Source of the DNA: Planctomycetota bacterium
GTDB taxonomy: Bacteria; Planctomycetota; Phycisphaerae; UBA1845; Fen-1342
NCBI GenBank assembly: GCA_022574815.1
Contig: JACZRH010000010.1
Coordinates: forward strand, 1 to 34,036
Direction of reading: 5' to 3'
Length of the DNA: 34,036 nucleotides
Below are positions 1,592 to 11,608 of the stretch, one piece after another. Below the pieces are notes generated by a model, which worked only from the letters and a program-made list of their open reading frames with translations, had not been told where the DNA came from and made no database searches. The position numbers were made by a program, and so were the translations under genes. Positions within the stretch are counted from its first letter, which is position 1. Every line of letters begins with the position of its first letter.

Positions 1592-2623
1592 ATGAGCCAA
1601 TCAATCGCCAATCCGACTCGTCGCCGCGCTCGGACCGGTTTTTCGCTGGTCGAGCTGCTGGTTGTGATCGCCATTATCGTTCTGCTGATTTCGATCGTCG
1701 TACCGGCGTTGAGCGCCGCCCGGCGAGCGGCGAAAGAGGCATCGACCAACGTGATGCTCGGCGTGCTGTCGACCGGCTTGCAGACCTTCGAGGCCGATCG
1801 CCGCATCGGCGGGCGTTTTCCGCCGTCGCTGCCGGATTTGCGCCCTGATGGGACTCGAAAGGTGGCTGATCCCTACCACCCGAACAGCAGCAGAAGCACG
1901 ACAATTGAGATCAGCGGAGCAGGGTTGCTCGTGTGGGCGCTGGCCGGGGCAGACCTGCTCGGAACGCCTGGTTTCCGAACGTTTGATACTCAAAACAGTA
2001 CGGTCTGGAACGAAGATTCGCACAGAAAACTGGAAAGTGATCCCAGAAAGAGCGGCGCGTTCGCCCTGAATAGCAACCTCCAGCCGGTGCATGCCCGCTC
2101 CGGCCCATACGTCGACCTCAGCAAGATCAATGTGACGCGATGGGACAAGAATGAAGGCAGCTTCGTTATTCCGGCCGAGTTGGAAGCCCGTAGCGAATCC
2201 GGTCGAAGCGCCGTCACGCGCGAATACCCGATGTTCCTGGATTCTTTCGGCTACCCGGTTCTTTACTGGCGGGCCGATCCGGCCGGTGTGCAGTTCGCCG
2301 ACAGTGTTTCTCCTGACAGACTTCCTTCCGCCCGCCGTGGCATTTACCACTGGATCGACAACGAGGCGTTGGTCAACTCCGGCGCGCGAGACGTGTTGGT
2401 GCTCCGTGCCGACAACGAAGTGCATAAGCTCGATTATGAGCCAGGACAGGATCCCCCGATTGATCCTGCGCCCGGATTCTTCCAGTACTACATTTGGAAC
2501 CAGGACGTGGGGGCGAAGGTTCATCCTCAGCGTCCCGATTCGTACCTGCTGGTCAGTCCCGGCGCCGATGGCCTATATGGAACGGCCGACGACATTGCCA
2601 ACTTCGACCACGGCGGGCGGTAA
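1592..2623 (+). CDS. GspG-like major pseudopilin with prepilin leader
   Basis: This 343-residue protein has a class III prepilin leader: basic residues, then G16|F17SLVE21, giving cleavage after G16 and Glu at mature position +5. A hydrophobic helix follows to about residue 38 (LLVVIAIIVLLISIVVPAL). The rest is a periplasmic domain ending in LLVSPGADGLYGTADDI (D326-D334), similar to the calcium-binding loop of GspG in type II secretion. It would be processed by a prepilin peptidase and assembled into a pseudopilus on the inner membrane. The start ATG is preceded by CAGGAG (SD-like) at a normal distance. It is longer than a classical GspG (about 140-150 residues), as is common for planctomycete prepilin-type proteins. 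Its TAA overlaps a possible ATG of the next gene (TAATG at 2621-2625). Confidence 0.85.
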   Translation: MSQSIANPTRRRARTGFSLVELLVVIAIIVLLISIVVPALSAARRAAKEASTNVMLGVLSTGLQTFEADRRIGGRFPPSLPDLRPDGTRKVADPYHPNSSRSTTIEISGAGLLVWALAGADLLGTPGFRTFDTQNSTVWNEDSHRKLESDPRKSGAFALNSNLQPVHARSGPYVDLSKINVTRWDKNEGSFVIPAELEARSESGRSAVTREYPMFLDSFGYPVLYWRADPAGVQFADSVSPDRLPSARRGIYHWIDNEALVNSGARDVLVLRADNEVHKLDYEPGQDPPIDPAPGFFQYYIWNQDVGAKVHPQRPDSYLLVSPGADGLYGTADDIANFDHGGR

Positions 2624-2640
2624 TGCGAGAGGGCGGCGTG

Positions 2641-3570
2641 ATGAGACAGGCAGGCGAGCCCCTTCCACGTGTCATCTCGGCCAGCCGCGCGGCCTTTACG
2701 ATGGTCGAGCTGCTGGTGGTGATCGTCATCATCATCCTGCTGACGGGGCTGATCGCCGGCGTCGCGACCAAGGCGATCGAAAACCAGCGCATCACCGTCA
2801 CGAAGAACACGATGCGCATGATCGACCTGGCGATCCAGCAGTTCGTCGCTGACAGCCCGCTCGGCACGTATTACAACAATCGCCGCACGAACAGCGTGAG
2901 CTTCGGTTCTTTTCCGGCGTACCAGCTCGATTCGGACGACAATCCGAACCACGTCGGTTGGGCGGTCGAGCCCAACCCGCCGCCGTTGCTTAAGGATCGT
3001 TTGGAACGCGACCTTACTTCTCTCGGCAGCGACAATCCTGCAAAGATAGAGATCAGGAAGGACAGTTTCGACGATATTCGCAGCTTGTATACGTATTTGC
3101 GTGTGTTCAGCCCGGCGGGGCTTTCGCAGGTTCCCGAAACGGCTCGCAAGCCCCTTCGAGATCAGCCGGAGTGGGTGGATGTGACCGGCGGGACGTCGTC
3201 TGCGGGTGACAACGCCCGCGCCGAGGTGCTCGGGTTCTACGACGCCTGGGGCGTGCCTCTGGACTACTTTCTGAACGTGCGGCTCGAATGGGGCGTGCGG
3301 CTCGATGGTTCGACCGGGTTGGTCGTTCGCGACCGCGTCCCGGTCCTGCGGTCGCACGGCGTGTCGCGCGAGGTTTTCAAGGAATACGAGCGGACCAGCG
3401 ATCCTTCGGTGCTGGATGCCAAGAAAGCGATCTACAGCCAGCCGTTTCCGAGTCCGAAGGCCAATGTCGATCCGGATACGGGCTTGTTCAGCGGCGGCAC
3501 CGGCGGCAACGGCTGGGCTCGTGCCAAAGCGGCCGGCAAGAAGGATTATTACAAGTACATCCCGCAGTAG
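2641..3570 (+). CDS. Prepilin-type pseudopilin, GspG/GspH class not assigned
   Basis: The leader ends SRAA18|F19TMVE23, so Ala replaces the usual Gly at -1 and Glu is at +5. The hydrophobic helix LLVVIVIIILLTGLIAGVA follows. The remaining 270 or so residues form a periplasmic domain with no motif I recognise. I chose ATG 2641 because AGAGGG lies 7 nt upstream. ATG 2623, overlapping the previous TAA, is an in-frame alternative that would add six residues (MREGGV). The C-terminus KDYYKYIPQ lacks the DG...DD loop of its neighbour. Length is 309 residues. Tight spacing with the flanking pseudopilin genes indicates one transcript. Placement in the pseudopilus is inferred from context only. Confidence 0.8.
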   Translation: MRQAGEPLPRVISASRAAFTMVELLVVIVIIILLTGLIAGVATKAIENQRITVTKNTMRMIDLAIQQFVADSPLGTYYNNRRTNSVSFGSFPAYQLDSDDNPNHVGWAVEPNPPPLLKDRLERDLTSLGSDNPAKIEIRKDSFDDIRSLYTYLRVFSPAGLSQVPETARKPLRDQPEWVDVTGGTSSAGDNARAEVLGFYDAWGVPLDYFLNVRLEWGVRLDGSTGLVVRDRVPVLRSHGVSREVFKEYERTSDPSVLDAKKAIYSQPFPSPKANVDPDTGLFSGGTGGNGWARAKAAGKKDYYKYIPQ

Positions 3571-3591
3571 GACAGCCGGGCGCCGCGTAGA

Positions 3592-4542
3592 ATGCGAGCG
3601 GCAAACGATTTACGGAGAAATGCGTTGCGGCGGACCGCAAACGACATAGCGAACCGAGATCAGAGCACGAATCGCGATCAGAACCCCGTCCTTAAGGGCG
3701 GGGTCTACGCGCGGGGCGGCCCGCGCGCGTTCACCGTCGTCGAGCTGATCGTCGTGATCGTCATCATCGGGCTGATCCTGGCGATCGTCCTGCCCGGTCT
3801 CGCCAAGATGACCAGCGACGCCCGCTTCAGCTCCGCCTCCCAGAGCGTGCAGGCCGCTTTCACGCGGGCCTACGTCGCCGCCCAGTCCGATCGCAATATG
3901 ACGGCGATTCGCTTCGTCCCGGACGTTTGGGAATTGAACCCGGATAGCGACGAGACCGAGCCGACCGGGCGCCAGCAGATGGTGACCTACACCTACCGGA
4001 CGTCAACCGACCTGGAAACTGCGGCGGGCGAGTTCGTCGTCGAGTACCGCGAGCGGCTCACCCGCCGCGAAGGCAGCCAATCGGTCCAGCTACCGGCCAA
4101 CGTGTGGGTCGCGCCGGCGGTGACGCTCGAAAGGGACGGGAATGGGCTGACCACAACGGCCGCCGACCTGCTCGTCGGTGACGTCGGCGACTTTCGGCTC
4201 GATCCGGCCGCGAACACGTTTTATTCGCCCGACGATTTCCTGGTCGTTTTCGACCCGCAGACCGGCGTGCGCGGCGGCGTCAGCACGGGGCGGCGCGGCG
4301 CGTGGCCGCGGTTTCAGATGGCCGCGACCGACATGACGACGCCGGCCAGCCCGCGGGAGAGCGCGCAGGTCGAGCGCTTCAACTTTTCGGGTATCGTGAT
4401 CTACAAGCGGGAGCCGTTCCTTGCGCTGGGCGCTTCTGCTTCGGCTGACGACCGTCAGGACGTATTGCGGCGGATCGGCAGGCCGTATTTCGTACACCGC
4501 TACAGCGGTGGGCTGGTGATGGGATCTCGGGATACGCAGTGA
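3592..4542 (+). CDS. GspH-like minor pseudopilin with an unusually long leader
   Basis: This 316-residue protein has the prepilin motif PRA46|F47TVVE51 followed by LIVVIVIIGLILAIVLPGLA. The early mature part (SDARFSSASQSVQAAFTRAYVAAQSDRN) resembles GspH/FimT minor pseudopilins, which have an amphipathic helix followed by a beta domain. The 46-residue leader is far longer than the usual 6-25. A TTG at 3625 with GGAGA 6 nt upstream would shorten it to 35 residues. No start codon lies closer to the motif in this frame. Part of the leader is encoded by a perfect hairpin at 3683-3704 that resembles a transposon end. The gene ends GTGA, overlapping the GTG start of the next gene. GspH identity is by position and N-terminal pattern. 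Confidence 0.8.
   Translation: MRAANDLRRNALRRTANDIANRDQSTNRDQNPVLKGGVYARGGPRAFTVVELIVVIVIIGLILAIVLPGLAKMTSDARFSSASQSVQAAFTRAYVAAQSDRNMTAIRFVPDVWELNPDSDETEPTGRQQMVTYTYRTSTDLETAAGEFVVEYRERLTRREGSQSVQLPANVWVAPAVTLERDGNGLTTTAADLLVGDVGDFRLDPAANTFYSPDDFLVVFDPQTGVRGGVSTGRRGAWPRFQMAATDMTTPASPRESAQVERFNFSGIVIYKREPFLALGASASADDRQDVLRRIGRPYFVHRYSGGLVMGSRDTQ
3683..3704. repeat. 8-9 bp stem hairpin resembling an IS200/IS605-type end, inside a pilin leader
   Basis: CCCCGTCC (3684-3691) pairs with GGGCGGGG (3696-3703) around a TTAA loop, with one G-U pair. An extra A-T pair closes it at 3683 and 3704. Hairpins of the form CCCCGtCCTTnAGGGCGGGG are familiar at the right end of tnpB-bearing IS200/IS605 elements and in REP-like repeats. 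Here it sits in the coding sequence for the leader. No transposase remains nearby. The hairpin is directly visible; its origin is inference. Confidence 0.6.
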
Positions 4543-6236
4543 GGTGCGATGTGTGTGCGCATCGGAGTAATCGACGACGGGGGATCAAGCGGTGGGCGCG
4601 ATGCGCGCCCGCGGTGGCCGCCCTTTTGGCGGCCGGGCCCCGCACCGGCCGAAAGGTGTATCGCACGGGTCGTCCCGCGTTCAGTCTGGTCGAACTGATG
4701 ATCGCTCTGATCATCCTCGGCTTCGGGCTGTTGGTCGTCGGTGCGGCCCTGCCGGTCGGCTTGACGATCACGCGCGAGACGACCGAGGCGGCGGTCGGCG
4801 AGGCGGCGGGGAAGTATGGGATGGTCGTGGTCGAGCGCTCCATGCGACTTGCCGGCGCGTTTGGTAAACCCAATGCAACGCCCCCGATTCTCGTGCGACC
4901 GGATATCGACAGCGTCTTTCGGCCGCGCGTGCAGGTCACGTCGGGCGTTCCTCCTTTGGTCGGTGAGTTAGCCCCCCAGCCGGCGCCGGGCTTCGACTTC
5001 GAACCCTTCGTGAAGGTCCGGCCGCTGATCTCCTTGAATTTCAACGCGAAGTTGGGTCTTGGCTTGCCGATGGCGGTCATGCCGGATCGAGGGGAAGAAT
5101 TGATTCGGGCCTGGTTATTGGGTACCGGTCGTCCGACCCTCTCGACAGAAGTTGATTTTCCTCTCGGCGGGCCGTTTGCCGACGTGAATGGGGACGGTAT
5201 CCTCGATAGTCGTGTCTTCAATCCCGTGCTGTCGGCGATTGCGCGGACGTACCCGCCGGTCTCCTCGGTCACACGTTTGGACCCCGACGATTTTTTTAGC
5301 AACGGACAATACAGGGTCACGCTGGTCTCCGAACAAGAACGGGAAATGCGAAAGGCGCTGGACCGCACGATCGGGTGGACGGCGTTTTACCGCCGGGTGT
5401 CGTACGCCGAGGGCAGCGATCCGAACTTGTATGAAATCATTGTGATTGCCACGCGCCGGCCCGGGCGCGATTTCCGCTTCGGCGTGCAGGATGAAAGCGC
5501 GCCCCTGGGCGCGAGGTGGGGACCGCAACCGCCAATGGGTGGTGGGTCGGGTTCGCAGCAAGGTGAGCAAGCCGCCGCCCTCGCGGAATCCAGCGAAAGA
5601 GAAACGGCCGGGATTGGGCCAAACTTCGATGGAAACGGCGGCGAGCCGGTGGCCGGCGCGGCCGGCAACGGTGCATTCGGCGGGACGATTGCGCGAGCTG
5701 TCGCCAGCACCGTTGAAGAGAGCGCTGCCCCGTCGGCGTGGCTGGTGCTGTTCACGGTTTTGCCTCCGCTGCCGGACTTGGTTCTGGGTGATCCGAATCG
5801 CGCGGTCGACCCGTTGTTTGAGGAGGCAGCGACGCTGAGCTTCAAATGTACGGCAAGTGTGGGCGCGTTGCTTCCCGTGGGCAGCATTTTCATCCCGGCG
5901 GTCAACGATGATCGGCCGGGTTCCATTCCCGGCCAGGTTTACGTTTCGGCGGTGCCCGGGGTACAGATCTCCGGGTTCGTGCCGCACTCGCCGACGATCC
6001 TGCCGATCTACAAGGTGGTCGAACGCCCTGACTTGACGACCGTGATCGTCAAGAATCCCGGTGTTTATCCGTGGGTGAATCCTAACGCTGCGACGCCCCT
6101 GTCGCAGCACTGGCCCGTGTGGGTGATTCCGCCGAGTTTCAAGGAGCACGACTCGAATGGCAGGCCGATCTTCGAGAACCGATCGTCGGTCCTTTCCGTC
6201 ACCCGGCGGTATATCCGGCTGCGTGAGATTCCATGA
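4539..6236 (+). CDS. GspI/PilV-like minor pseudopilin, large (565 residues)
   Basis: The prepilin motif is RPA47|F48SLVE52 followed by LMIALIILGFGLLVVGAALPVG, a GspI/PilV-type N-terminus. The periplasmic part holds an EF-hand or dockerin-like loop DVNGDGILDS starting at D215. A low-complexity Gly/Ala/Glu/Ser region at roughly residues 327-390 looks like a linker. A distinct C-terminal part follows. Classical GspI is about 120 residues, so this is a strongly expanded version. The first possible start, GTG 4539, overlaps the previous stop (GTGA). GTG 4656 would give an eight-residue leader that is more typical, so the start is not settled. The stop overlaps the next ATG (ATGA at 6233-6236), indicating translational coupling. 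Confidence 0.8.
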   Translation: MRCDVCAHRSNRRRGIKRWARCAPAVAALLAAGPRTGRKVYRTGRPAFSLVELMIALIILGFGLLVVGAALPVGLTITRETTEAAVGEAAGKYGMVVVERSMRLAGAFGKPNATPPILVRPDIDSVFRPRVQVTSGVPPLVGELAPQPAPGFDFEPFVKVRPLISLNFNAKLGLGLPMAVMPDRGEELIRAWLLGTGRPTLSTEVDFPLGGPFADVNGDGILDSRVFNPVLSAIARTYPPVSSVTRLDPDDFFSNGQYRVTLVSEQEREMRKALDRTIGWTAFYRRVSYAEGSDPNLYEIIVIATRRPGRDFRFGVQDESAPLGARWGPQPPMGGGSGSQQGEQAAALAESSERETAGIGPNFDGNGGEPVAGAAGNGAFGGTIARAVASTVEESAAPSAWLVLFTVLPPLPDLVLGDPNRAVDPLFEEAATLSFKCTASVGALLPVGSIFIPAVNDDRPGSIPGQVYVSAVPGVQISGFVPHSPTILPIYKVVERPDLTTVIVKNPGVYPWVNPNAATPLSQHWPVWVIPPSFKEHDSNGRPIFENRSSVLSVTRRYIRLREIP

Positions 6237-7936: not shown

Positions 7937-10900
7937 ATGAGACGTAAGCGGAAGGAAACGAAACGCGGCACGATCCTGCTCATGGTGGTGGGGCTGTTGT
8001 CGATGCTGTTCATCATCATATCGGCCTATTTGACGCTGGCACGCTTCGAACGCCACACGTCTCAGCAGGTCCGCCAGGGGCGCGAGATCGACGACATCAT
8101 TGACACGGTCAACGAACTCGTAATGCAGAAGCTGATCGAGCAGTGGACCGATAACAATGGCAACATGCTCTCGGACGGAGCGAACCTGCCCGACAACTTC
8201 GCGTTCGCCGACATTCCCGGCTATCGCGGATCGGGCGTCCAGGCGTCGCACGAATTGGTGCGTGCGGCGACGAGCATGCTGGGGTCGACGAGCGTGTATA
8301 TCACGCCAGCGGTGACCATGCTCAACGGATACATCCGGAGCGGTTCGACCGTATCGGTGGGATACTCGCGTGGTGGCAGTGTCGATTGGCTGCTCGATGA
8401 TCTCCTACCCGTTTGGAGTGACCGGCGCCACACCACTGGCATCGCCTCGTCCGCTTATCTTGCCTCGTTGTCGAGGTTTGCCCGGGATCCCTACACCGAC
8501 GCCGACGGCGACGGGATCGGAGACTCCTATCTGCCGGGCCTGGCGTTGGCGAGCGAGCTGGCGGGCGCGATCGCGGGGGTTCCGGTTCGCGTCCCGACCG
8601 GGGAACCGGCTTTTATCTGGCCGCCCAGTGACTCAAGAAGTGTGCCGGCTCGTCGGTTTCTGGAAACCGCGCGCTATATAACGTCGGTGCGGGTCATTCC
8701 GAACAGCGGCATGGTGAGTCTGGACGTCCCCTTTGCACACGGCGAGTTCTTGCAGCACACCTTCGCTTACGTGAACAAGGAGCCGGCCGGGACTGCGTTT
8801 CCGCCGTCCGGCTCCGGCATGAGCCTCGACGACTTCATTCGGCGGATGCGGGCCGAGGCACCGTCGATCGAGCCACTCTTGCGTCGGCGGGGCGCTTTGC
8901 CGTCGGCGGGCATCGATCCGACCAACCCGCAAGCTCGTCGCGACGCCGATTTCGCGCGCGTGCCCGCGATCGTTCGCATGCTCGAGAATGACTACGAGCG
9001 TACGTTCGTCTCGGGATTCCGGGTCGGCCAGTCCGGGCAGGAGCGCGAGCACTACCAGCGCTTCAATCTCGGACACCCGCGCGGAAACGAGTGGGAGCGT
9101 GCCCGGCAGGGGCTCTGGCTCGACGCGACGACCTTCAACGTGACGATTCCGTTGTTCGATCAAAGCGGGGCCAACGTCGGCGCAGGCGGTTTCGCGGTCA
9201 TGCAGTTTTACGACCGGCGGCACTTGTTCACATCGAAGAGCAACAGCGACGAGCTGGCCCGCAAGCAAGGATCGCCGCCGAATCCCCCGGGCCAGCCTTT
9301 CGGGACGCGCGCAGGTGAGCTGAAGTTTTATCTGGGCGATATCGATCAGTGCTACAGGGTCGATCCGGGCACGGGCGTGGTCCGCTTCGATTCAATTGCG
9401 GCGCAGCCGGTGCTGCGGCGCATAATGAACTTGTACTACGACATGCTCGAGGGCTACAAGGACTGGAAGACGGTTGCCGGCAATCCGAACGAAGAAGCCG
9501 TCTCGCGGCTGCAGCAGGCGGCGATGTTGACGGTCAATACGGTAGCGTTTGCGGCGCCGCGCACGGCCGATCAAAACGCGCAGTTGCCGGGTTTCATCGA
9601 CGTCGTTCGGTTTAGCCCCGGCACGATCTCGCCGGCACCGGTCTATTACGGCTACGGTCCGCAGCCGTTCATTACTCAGGCCATTGTATATCGTGACGAC
9701 GATGATGCCCGCGCCGTTGGCGTGGAGTTTTACAACCCGAACGAACCTTTTCGTGTGCGTAGCATAAACGACGAGCACGCGCTGTATCTGCCGCAGTTTG
9801 CGGTCAGTCTGAACAATGAATACGACGATCCCATCAATGGGATAAGTCCGGGTGCGCTTCGCCCGCTGGACTGGTCACGGAACATAGGCATTCCGCGACG
9901 GTTCCCAGGCCGTCGGTTCATGACTCTCTCAATCAGCAACAGTGGTGGCAATGGCTTTTTCAAGGGACGGTCGGATGGCGGTGAGATCGATCTCGCCGTG
10001 GGGCTAAACGGGAACGGCAAGATCACCATCAAGCTCTGGCGAGCCGACTTTGAAACGGCCCTCACGTCTAACCCTGCGGGCACCTGGCATTTGGTGGACA
10101 AGTTTACAGTTCCCGATGCGGATCCGCCGCAAAGCGGTGTGGGTCAATGGCTGTCGACTTACCGCGACACTCGAGCCGAGGACTATTTCGGGCTTGATAC
10201 CAGCCGTGTACCCGCGGTTCCTACTCGTTGGCGAATGGCGTTGGGCTTCCGGGACACGGACCGATTGTACCCCACGGCCAGCCGCGGATCCGGTCCACCC
10301 TCGGGCACCATTATGATTACTTACGGCGCTGTGGGACCCGGTCACCTCCCCGCGGTTGTTCCGTTCGGGCCGACGACTCCGCTGTACACGATGAACGCGC
10401 CGATCATCGAGCCGAACGGTCTGCGCATCAGCATCAGAGTGCATGACGTCGACCGCCCCCCTTCGTTCCCCACCGTCGGCTTCATGCACTTCGTGCCGCG
10501 TTTTTCGCACGTCAGGCAGGCGGCGACGGACTTTGAGCCGATGAGCGCGGTTCTGCGCGATCAGTGGATGGCGCGTAACTATAGCTTTACCACGAGCCAG
10601 AGCCCGCCGGCCGACTTCGGCCATATGCCGATCTTCGACAACGAGCAGAAGGCCGATGCGGGCGGGCAGTTCGACGATGCGCGGGCCGGGCGGATCCCGT
10701 GGGGGCTGCTGGTCTATGATTACTTCACGACGCTGGATCCGAGCACCGTGGATCCCTACCGCGTGCCGGGGCGCATCAACATCAACGCTGCCCCGTGGTG
10801 GGTGCTGGCGTCGCTGCCCGTCGTCGAGCCGGCGACGTTGTTCGGTGAGTATGGCCGGATGATGACGCCGCCGTCGCCGGCGTTCTGGAGCGGCGCGGGA

Positions 10901-11608
10901 ATCCTGTTCGGCGTCGGCAATGAGCCCGCGCCCGGGGTGCCTCTGCCGCGCTATGCAGTCGCCGACAGTCCGCGCACAGCCGGAGTGCCACTGATCAGCA
11001 CGGCGGATCCTAGTTGGCACTACCTGGGTCCGCGGCTGGCACAATCCATCGCCAGCTACCGCGATCGGATTCAGTATGCTCTAAATGTAACGACGGAGTT
11101 CTGGAACTCCGATGACCGGATGGGTTACCGCAGCACGCCAATCTACGTCGGGATGCGCCTAGGATCTCGACCGTCGACGTCGAACCCGCGCAAGTACGGA
11201 TTCGTCAGCGTCGGCGAGTTAGCCAACGTCAAGGGCTTCGCGTCTACGATTTATGACCCGGCGAACGGGTTACCGGTTCTGGATCCAGCAATCCAGGTCG
11301 AACCACCGCTTTCCGTGTTCAACACGATGCGGGCGCAACCTCGCGCCGCCGACTTTTTCAAAGCCGTCAGCCTGATGGCGATGCTGGACTCGCACTTCCT
11401 CACGACGCGCGGCAACACGTTTACGGTGTACGTGTCGGTCATGGACCGCGAGAACCCGCAGGCCAGCGTCCGCTCGCAGATCACGGTCGACCGCAGCAAC
11501 CTGCTGCCGCAGTTGATTCCGGGGCGAGGCACTCTTCAGAGCCGCGGGATGCCCGCGATCATCGCTCAGCGGCAGATTGCGTATTCCAATACGCGGTTCG
11601 ACGACTGA
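7937..11608 (+). CDS. gspK: Giant GspK-like minor pseudopilin (1223 residues)
   Basis: The N-terminus KRG|TILLMVVGLLSMLFIIISAYLTLARFE matches the GspK pattern: a prepilin-type cleavage site but no Glu at +5. Near the C-terminus G945-R-I-N-I-N-A-A-P953 WWVLASLP is the GspK signature that precedes its helix-hairpin-helix element. The later segments RLAQSIASYRD and FVSVGELANVKGF also match GspK. A calcium-type loop DADGDGIGDS starts at D188. GspK normally caps the pseudopilus tip with GspI and GspJ and has about 300-330 residues, so this copy carries roughly 900 extra, mostly between residue 200 and 940. I recognise no domain in that insert. ATG 7937 follows GGTGAGTT, a weak ribosome site. Family assignment is strong at both ends; what the extra mass does is unknown. 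Confidence 0.82.
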   Translation: MRRKRKETKRGTILLMVVGLLSMLFIIISAYLTLARFERHTSQQVRQGREIDDIIDTVNELVMQKLIEQWTDNNGNMLSDGANLPDNFAFADIPGYRGSGVQASHELVRAATSMLGSTSVYITPAVTMLNGYIRSGSTVSVGYSRGGSVDWLLDDLLPVWSDRRHTTGIASSAYLASLSRFARDPYTDADGDGIGDSYLPGLALASELAGAIAGVPVRVPTGEPAFIWPPSDSRSVPARRFLETARYITSVRVIPNSGMVSLDVPFAHGEFLQHTFAYVNKEPAGTAFPPSGSGMSLDDFIRRMRAEAPSIEPLLRRRGALPSAGIDPTNPQARRDADFARVPAIVRMLENDYERTFVSGFRVGQSGQEREHYQRFNLGHPRGNEWERARQGLWLDATTFNVTIPLFDQSGANVGAGGFAVMQFYDRRHLFTSKSNSDELARKQGSPPNPPGQPFGTRAGELKFYLGDIDQCYRVDPGTGVVRFDSIAAQPVLRRIMNLYYDMLEGYKDWKTVAGNPNEEAVSRLQQAAMLTVNTVAFAAPRTADQNAQLPGFIDVVRFSPGTISPAPVYYGYGPQPFITQAIVYRDDDDARAVGVEFYNPNEPFRVRSINDEHALYLPQFAVSLNNEYDDPINGISPGALRPLDWSRNIGIPRRFPGRRFMTLSISNSGGNGFFKGRSDGGEIDLAVGLNGNGKITIKLWRADFETALTSNPAGTWHLVDKFTVPDADPPQSGVGQWLSTYRDTRAEDYFGLDTSRVPAVPTRWRMALGFRDTDRLYPTASRGSGPPSGTIMITYGAVGPGHLPAVVPFGPTTPLYTMNAPIIEPNGLRISIRVHDVDRPPSFPTVGFMHFVPRFSHVRQAATDFEPMSAVLRDQWMARNYSFTTSQSPPADFGHMPIFDNEQKADAGGQFDDARAGRIPWGLLVYDYFTTLDPSTVDPYRVPGRININAAPWWVLASLPVVEPATLFGEYGRMMTPPSPAFWSGAGILFGVGNEPAPGVPLPRYAVADSPRTAGVPLISTADPSWHYLGPRLAQSIASYRDRIQYALNVTTEFWNSDDRMGYRSTPIYVGMRLGSRPSTSNPRKYGFVSVGELANVKGFASTIYDPANGLPVLDPAIQVEPPLSVFNTMRAQPRAADFFKAVSLMAMLDSHFLTTRGNTFTVYVSVMDRENPQASVRSQITVDRSNLLPQLIPGRGTLQSRGMPAIIAQRQIAYSNTRFDD

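Follow-up and report, generated by a model that had tools for sequence, protein, structure and literature searches.

A hairpin of IS200/IS605 end type within the variable leader of a prepilin gene from a Planctomycetota bacterium

A prepilin gene on contig JACZRH010000010.1 of a Planctomycetota bacterium (assembly GCA_022574815.1) carries a 22-nt hairpin in the part that encodes its leader, and the stem of this hairpin, judged by comparison with database copies, is of the IS200/IS605 end type. We consider it probable that the leader is an unconstrained, cleaved sequence and that the hairpin is a lone, tolerated occupant of it. Across the gene family, the better-supported picture from aligned loci is that of a hypervariable leader behind a TTG or GTG start and a near-fixed spacing between an upstream block and that start. 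In the following, the window denotes the whole stretch of 34,036 nucleotides that was analysed, to which all coordinates refer (Table 1).

Table 1. Features of the prepilin gene and its neighbours in the window
Feature	Position	Strand	Remarks
Upstream prepilin-like ORF	2494..3570	+	Same cluster; real start further in than listed
TAGAAT block (-10-like)	3588..3593	+	Recurs upstream of orthologous pilin genes; overlaps ATG 3592
GGAG, putative Shine-Dalgarno	3614..3617	+	7 nt before TTG 3625
TTG, best-supported start codon	3625..3627	+	Inferred from comparison
Prepilin leader, 35 codons	3625..3729	+	LRRTANDIANRDQSTNRDQNPVLKGGVYARGGPRA; unmatched in the 18 other leaders
Hairpin ACCCCGTCCTTAAGGGCGGGGT	3683..3704	+	10 Watson-Crick pairs and one T.G; IS200/IS605 end type; encodes NPVLKGGV
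Second hairpin, GC-only	3708..3727	+	8-pair arms, loop of 4; directly 3´ of the first; within ARGGPRA
Mature GspH-like minor pseudopilin	3730..4542	+	Begins FTVVELIVVI after Ala; stop codon included; cleavage between A and F inferred from motif
Downstream prepilin ORF	4539..6236	+	Leader of 47 residues if the listed GTG is the start; without IS605-like hairpin

The prepilin gene and its cluster

The open reading frame at 3592–4542 (+), with the prepilin motif FTVVELIVVI from position 3730, sits among a cluster of prepilin-like genes, and relatives of the family have similar genes. The type 4 prepilin signal is present in full at the junction of A and FTVVELIVVI, with Gly or Ala followed by F, Glu at +5 and a hydrophobic stretch. 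The protein scores 20.4 bits with TIGR02532 (cut-off 16.3) and 19.1 with PF07963, slightly under the 21.2 of that model. In an alignment of 21 proteins (A1, from which L032 of the 22 loci was left out), the mature parts of the 20 others are 34–48% identical to the focal protein. TIGR01708 (GspH) matches 18 of the 21 and TIGR02596 (Verru_Chthon cassette protein D) all of them, the focal protein being matched by both. A previous reading of the DNA from its sequence only had called the protein GspH-like. The TIGR01708 matches support this weakly: the focal protein stays below the curated cut-offs (29.7 vs 80 bits for TIGR01708 and 36.1 vs 70 for TIGR02596), and the likeness is not exclusive, the GspG model matching 19 of the 21 aligned proteins, in the focal one over a shorter stretch. 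Adjoining the pilin cluster is a tyrosine recombinase (Phage_integrase and Phage_int_SAM_4; 105–1019, -), which we take to be integron-integrase-like. The cluster is closed by an ORF of 1223 aa at 7937–11608 (+), for which Pfam and NCBIfam gave no match at the thresholds applied.

Start codon and leader length

Thirty loci were retrieved (L012–L041) and start codons were counted on 22 of them (L012–L033), leaving out L034, the match of which began in the C-terminal part, and L035–L041, which were weak, partial or non-family. The block, TA[GC]AAT or any of four close variants of it, is found upstream in 19 of the 22 loci and is absent from L015, L022 and L026. No sigma-70 consensus promoter was found, and -10-like is used as a descriptive label. 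GGAG followed after 6–9 nt by an in-frame start codon occurs in 13 of the 22 loci including the focal one (12 of 21 orthologues), as opposed to 2/22 and 0/22 in the other two frames; nine loci are without the pattern. The start codon in the 13 loci is TTG (nine) or GTG (four).

The ATG at 3592 was rejected as the start codon, as it overlaps the TAGAAT block and has no Shine-Dalgarno sequence. A leader of 46 residues, as given in the sequence-only reading, presupposes this ATG; from the Shine-Dalgarno-supported TTG 3625 the leader would be 35 residues long, and this we find more likely from the comparison of loci. Since the start that is supported by comparison is often a TTG or GTG after GGAG, leader length and the choice of ATG may not be reliable for the prepilins of this group. 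The hairpin falls inside the leader of the 3592–4542 frame, where it reads N-P-V-L-K-G-G-V, in agreement with the earlier claim that it encodes part of the leader. As there is no in-frame ATG, GTG or TTG between the hairpin and the pilin motif, it is coding, barring a non-canonical start.

Leader variability in the family

Leaders from 19 loci were compared (L016, L022 and L026, without a chosen start, were left out), six of them with starts picked without GGAG (L013, L014, L015, L023, L029 and L030). In 12 of the 13 GGAG-start loci, the distance from the -10-like block, chosen from a fixed list of variants, to the start codon is 35–49 nt (83 in L024); the distance from start to motif among the same 13 loci ranges from 12 to 198 nt. 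Relatives that have no hairpin have leaders of 5–67 residues, the shortest being that of L017, and several come close to the focal 35, counted to F: 32 in G010 (a start without Shine-Dalgarno), 36 in G002 and 35 in G007. These leaders are similar in length to the focal one and different in sequence, so a long leader can be accounted for without the hairpin. By blastn, the focal leader matches none of the others at E 0.1. Matches at E 1e-3 or better are confined to L019, L031 and L032, which have an octamer array in common. The best stem in the 18 other leaders has 3–9 pairs.

Structure and rarity of the hairpin

The hairpin was originally described as a perfect palindrome. This needs correction, one of its 11 pairs being T.G and the remaining ten Watson-Crick (complementarity 93%). 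Four stems of at least 10 pairs occur in the window, of which this is the longest, and ten dinucleotide shuffles contain 1–4 of them (mean 1.8); as a mere hairpin it is mildly unusual. As a sequence it is unusual: with up to 3 mismatches, the 20-mer of the hairpin has its own site as the sole match in the window (expected in window shuffles, 0.00). A search for copies elsewhere in the genome, one of the checks proposed with the sequence-only reading, came back empty at the same stringency in the 4.48 Mb assembly (84% complete), with 1 match for the reversed control. A looser pattern, GAACCCCGYCC-gap-GGGCGGGG, likewise has one match in the focal genome (G000), and membership of a REP family of this genome was rejected.

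At the RNA level, the stretch 3571–3740 folds with a z-score of -2.1, and 7 of 200 shuffles fold equally well. A scan found no intrinsic terminator signature at the hairpin, which rules out that reading, and Rfam at gathering scores gave three tRNAs and nothing else in the window.

Resemblance to IS200/IS605 ends

The left and right ends of IS200/IS605 elements form hairpins that are bound by TnpA, and the right end overlaps the 3´ end of tnpB. The pattern CCCCGTCCTTNAGGGCGGGG was found in IMG/VR in at least 120 stretches and at least 128 occurrences, with 104 distinct contexts among the matches listed. Of the 128 listed occurrences, 48 share the strand of a tnpB and lie at its 3´ end, and 8 lie at a tnpB 5´ end. 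An IS605 protein lies within 700 nt in 61 of them; the 67 listed viral occurrences that have none within this distance, 22 of them near locus ends, suggest that the motif may at times stand by itself. As controls, two hairpins with rearranged composition gave 8 stretches (0/8 near IS605 proteins) and 0 stretches. Among the listed viral matches, 27 overlap the tnpB frame, and the tails of 26 read PVL or PVLQGGE, compared to PVLKGGV in the focal sequence, and both the position of the T.G pair and the reading frame are the same as in the tnpB-3´ copies. The focal loop base is A, one base off the common T/C-loop form and seen in 1 of the 128 listed viral copies. It gives AAG where TnpB has TAG or CAG, and the hairpin is thus open in the frame of the TnpB tail. 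TCAA follows within 13 nt of the stem in 35 of the 48 listed tnpB-3´ copies and not in the other 13; the 13 nt after the focal stem, TCTACGCGCGGGG, lack TCAA as well as the TTAA, TCAC and TTAC of other copies.

Plasmid sequences give a similar picture. A 35-nt query matched 128 records, with 95–99% identity at the best place in 124 of them and a match length of 21–23 nt in 29 of the 30 matches listed. It is the context and not the score that carries evidence here, as single matches listed have E-values of 0.3 to 4. Among nine records inspected, tnpA or tnpB is located 3´ of the match in six, i.e., in the left-end arrangement, and the six proteins tested by Pfam are Y1_Tnp (2) or OrfB/TnpB (4); in L062, also one of the nine, the match is to something other than the hairpin, and in L061 the tnpB is known from annotation only. 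Thirteen phage records matched, none of them informatively (best E 0.04). The earlier designation as IS200/IS605 right-end type is thus right, given the 48 of 128 listed viral copies next to tnpB 3´ ends and the TnpB tail frame; left ends have the hairpin as well.

Transposases and related hairpins

None of the 7 window proteins scanned is a tnpA or tnpB product beside the hairpin, and the TnpB domain (PF07282) has no match in the 84% complete focal genome. Seven Y1_Tnp matches (6 over cut-off) are found on other contigs of it (C189, C176, C203, C120, C101, C209 and C14) in frames of 178–366 aa, which we take to be longer than a typical IS200 TnpA and perhaps RAYT-like. No palindrome like the focal hairpin was seen flanking these seven loci. 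In a set of relatives, 15 of 61 genomes have TnpB-domain matches, above cut-off in 9, and 11 of the 17 matches lie in open frames of at least 700 aa.

A search of 100 relatives with 2 mismatches gave 5 matches, each breaking at least one more stem pair as judged by eye, and 6 for the reversed control; the sets of relatives included no genome of the focal genus. Among 392 genomes of the phylum, inferred to be Planctomycetota, the pattern is present in two, the focal genome and one other with 8 copies. In the latter (G214, L189–L196), the eight hairpins are exact and of IS605 type, several are at contig ends, and the 5´ side is similar and the 3´ side variable. By its sequence, this flank pattern is as expected of the right end of a mobile element. 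The exact 22-mer with A loop occurs five times in other GTDB genomes, four times without an IS605 protein within 700 nt and once near a DNA end, and in 3 of these 5 genomes A-loop hairpins within one mismatch are found at several places.

Genus g17 has a small hairpin set of its own, GAACCCCGCCC-RYG-AGGGCGGGG, with L047 and L052 (G026) and L048, L053 and L054 (G016) among the copies listed. One copy lies a short way upstream of the pilin orthologue in G026. It was rejected as the same site as the focal hairpin, being outside the leader and a member of a set with at least 5 copies in G016 and G026.

Dispersed repeats in related leaders

Several other leaders of the family contain repeats, of different kinds, that are also scattered through the respective genome. 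The octamer pattern GGCACGNAGGCACG, counted with overlapping matches, is found 179 times in G019 (21 for the reversed control), 35 times in G012 (4) and 215 times in G021 (34); it has no match in 7 of 18 genomes. Octamer arrays GGCACGNA are dispersed in G019, G021, G012 and G000, where they are commoner than the reversed control. The clearest case of an array within a leader is L031 (G019), which has no later start. The leader of L019 (G012) also holds an array, with later GTG codons that leave doubt, and the next prepilin gene of G012, downstream of the L019 orthologue, has one in its leader right before the FSLAEM motif (...LRASVPACLRAFRAFSLAEM). The array common to the G012 and G019 leaders is on opposite strands in the two. 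An array of a different octamer is present in the leader of G009.

A second type of repeat is palindromic. The pattern GGCTTCCAGCCNGT is counted 39 times in G015 (reversed control, 1) and 28 times in G019 (0), and in G005 there are 294 copies (0), regularly spaced in places. L020 (G015) has a TTCCAG palindrome, GGCTTCCAGCC, in its leader, followed by two later GTG codons, and L031 has a TTCCAG palindrome of its own, a variant missed by the counted pattern. The leaders of G008 and G017 hold similar pieces, yet G008 has 0 matches to the octamer pattern and G017 has 1 to the palindrome pattern. Between genes, upstream of the pilin start of L020, there is also a long inverted repeat, presumably of the kind read as ...LPYGRGSD....

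One intriguing possibility, which we put forward tentatively and do not favour, is that mobile or dispersed repeats have landed in frame, time and again, in the prepilin leaders of this family. Leaders might accept repeats because they are cut off before the pilin is used, and parts of the cleaved leader could then have been built from different elements in each genome. Candidates, no firmer than the idea itself, would be the octamer array and TTCCAG palindrome of G019, the arrays of G012, GGCTTCCAGCC of G015 and perhaps an IS605-type end in the focal gene. The idea gains some probability from the array in a second G012 leader and from the array on opposite strands in the G012 and G019 leaders. 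If true, prepilin leaders would provide a clean natural setting in which mobile or repeat DNA becomes coding sequence with the mature protein unharmed. A narrow literature search returned no paper on a prepilin leader derived from a mobile element and did not find the phrase Verru Chthon cassette, neither of which is meant as a claim of absence from print.

Origin of the hairpin

Type 4 pilin leaders are described as lying in the cytoplasm, differing in length and ending in Gly or Ala, after which prepilin peptidase cuts (PMC10191384). In the focal protein, the leader between TTG 3625 and the cleavage site would be removed by this peptidase with a cut between A and FTVVEL. From established type 4 pilin biology, all that the leader should need is a frame that stays open and a suitable end ahead of FTVVEL, so that it may drift like spacer DNA, free in length and sequence, while the -10-like block, the Shine-Dalgarno sequence and the start keep their near-fixed spacing. 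Additional sequence should do no harm as long as it keeps the frame and does not disturb targeting. The focal spacer contains a single such stretch, the 22-nt hairpin of IS200/IS605 end type, without an assigned function in the pilin gene and probably tolerated since it is removed together with the leader. Against this explanation count a fit to the IS605 motif that is closer than a random hairpin should give, the frame of the TnpB tail and the nine of 22 loci without the GGAG-start pattern. The chance of such a hairpin is about 1 in 1000 genomes by a rough estimate, extrapolated from the 17 stems of at least 10 pairs that were counted over 138 kb of the focal genome, in stretches not chosen at random.

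Alternatively, the hairpin could be a decayed IS200/IS605 end that inserted into the leader and did not break the frame. It would then be either a right end that retains the final codons of TnpB, or else a solo copy or one associated with a palindrome. The pattern at tnpB 3´ ends (48 of the 128 listed viral occurrences, 8 at 5´ ends, with controls at 0/8 and in 0 stretches), the same place of the T.G pair and the same frame (PVLQGGE vs PVLKGGV), the plasmid matches (124 of 128 records at 95–99%, tnpA or tnpB 3´ in 6 of 9 inspected) and the one-mismatch A-loop hairpins that three of five other genomes have in multiple places all argue for such an origin. On weighing a base rate for IS605-type hairpins of about 1 in 391 genomes against an estimated chance of about 1 in 1000 or less, and the rare loop base, we nevertheless regard it as unlikely. 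The hairpin is a single copy in a genome with no TnpB match and is not followed by the TCAA of most listed tnpB-3´ copies (35 of 48); the A loop is found in 1 of 128 listed viral copies, and exact A-loop 22-mers are without an IS605 protein within 700 nt in four of five cases. Furthermore, 11 of 17 TnpB-domain matches in the set of relatives are in open frames of at least 700 aa, and the length of the leader calls for no insertion. The sequence-only reading had gone further in suggesting an inserted relic that lengthened the leader, and had named as evidence against it a lack of other copies and equally long, unrelated leaders in orthologues. This is largely what was found. A local or independent origin of the hairpin is somewhat more likely than a transposon origin.

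A regulatory role, in which an early-coding mRNA structure slows translation or stabilises the transcript, would fit the stable RNA form (T.G becoming G-U), the folding of 3571–3740 above most shuffles and the second hairpin directly 3´, but it is very unlikely: the best stem in 18 other leaders has 3–9 pairs, there is no terminator signature, and the hairpin begins 58 nt past the first base of the start codon. More improbable still is that the hairpin lies in an untranslated stretch upstream of a non-canonical start. Orthologue L017 shows that a leader of 5 residues exists, but the focal gene has no in-frame ATG, GTG or TTG before the motif and has a GGAG-start upstream. The tolerated hairpin in an unconstrained leader thus remains the explanation that we prefer.

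Comparison with known systems

The focal protein shares the N-terminal motif and early domain with GspH and Verru_Chthon cassette protein D prepilins (TIGR01708, TIGR02596), from which it differs in scoring under the curated cut-offs and in belonging to a set of which 19 of 21 are also matched by the GspG model. With IS200/IS605 ends, the hairpin has in common the stem sequence, the position of the T.G pair and the TnpB-tail reading frame; it differs in having no adjacent tnpA or tnpB, no TCAA tail like that of most listed right-end copies, a loop of A and not T/C, and a single copy. An IS605 end hairpin without tnpA is also described for PATE-like, ends-only IS605 sequences (PMC7290912), which are about 271 nt long and comprise a partial left end and a whole right end, compared to one 22-nt hairpin here (PMC7290912). 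Rickettsia palindromic elements are described as being kept in frame inside protein-coding genes (PMC10969869). They form multi-copy families of about 150 bp elements, whereas the focal hairpin is a candidate insertion of 22 nt that is found once at up to 3 mismatches (PMC10969869). What the two have in common is palindromic, possibly mobile DNA that is carried in frame within a gene (PMC10969869).
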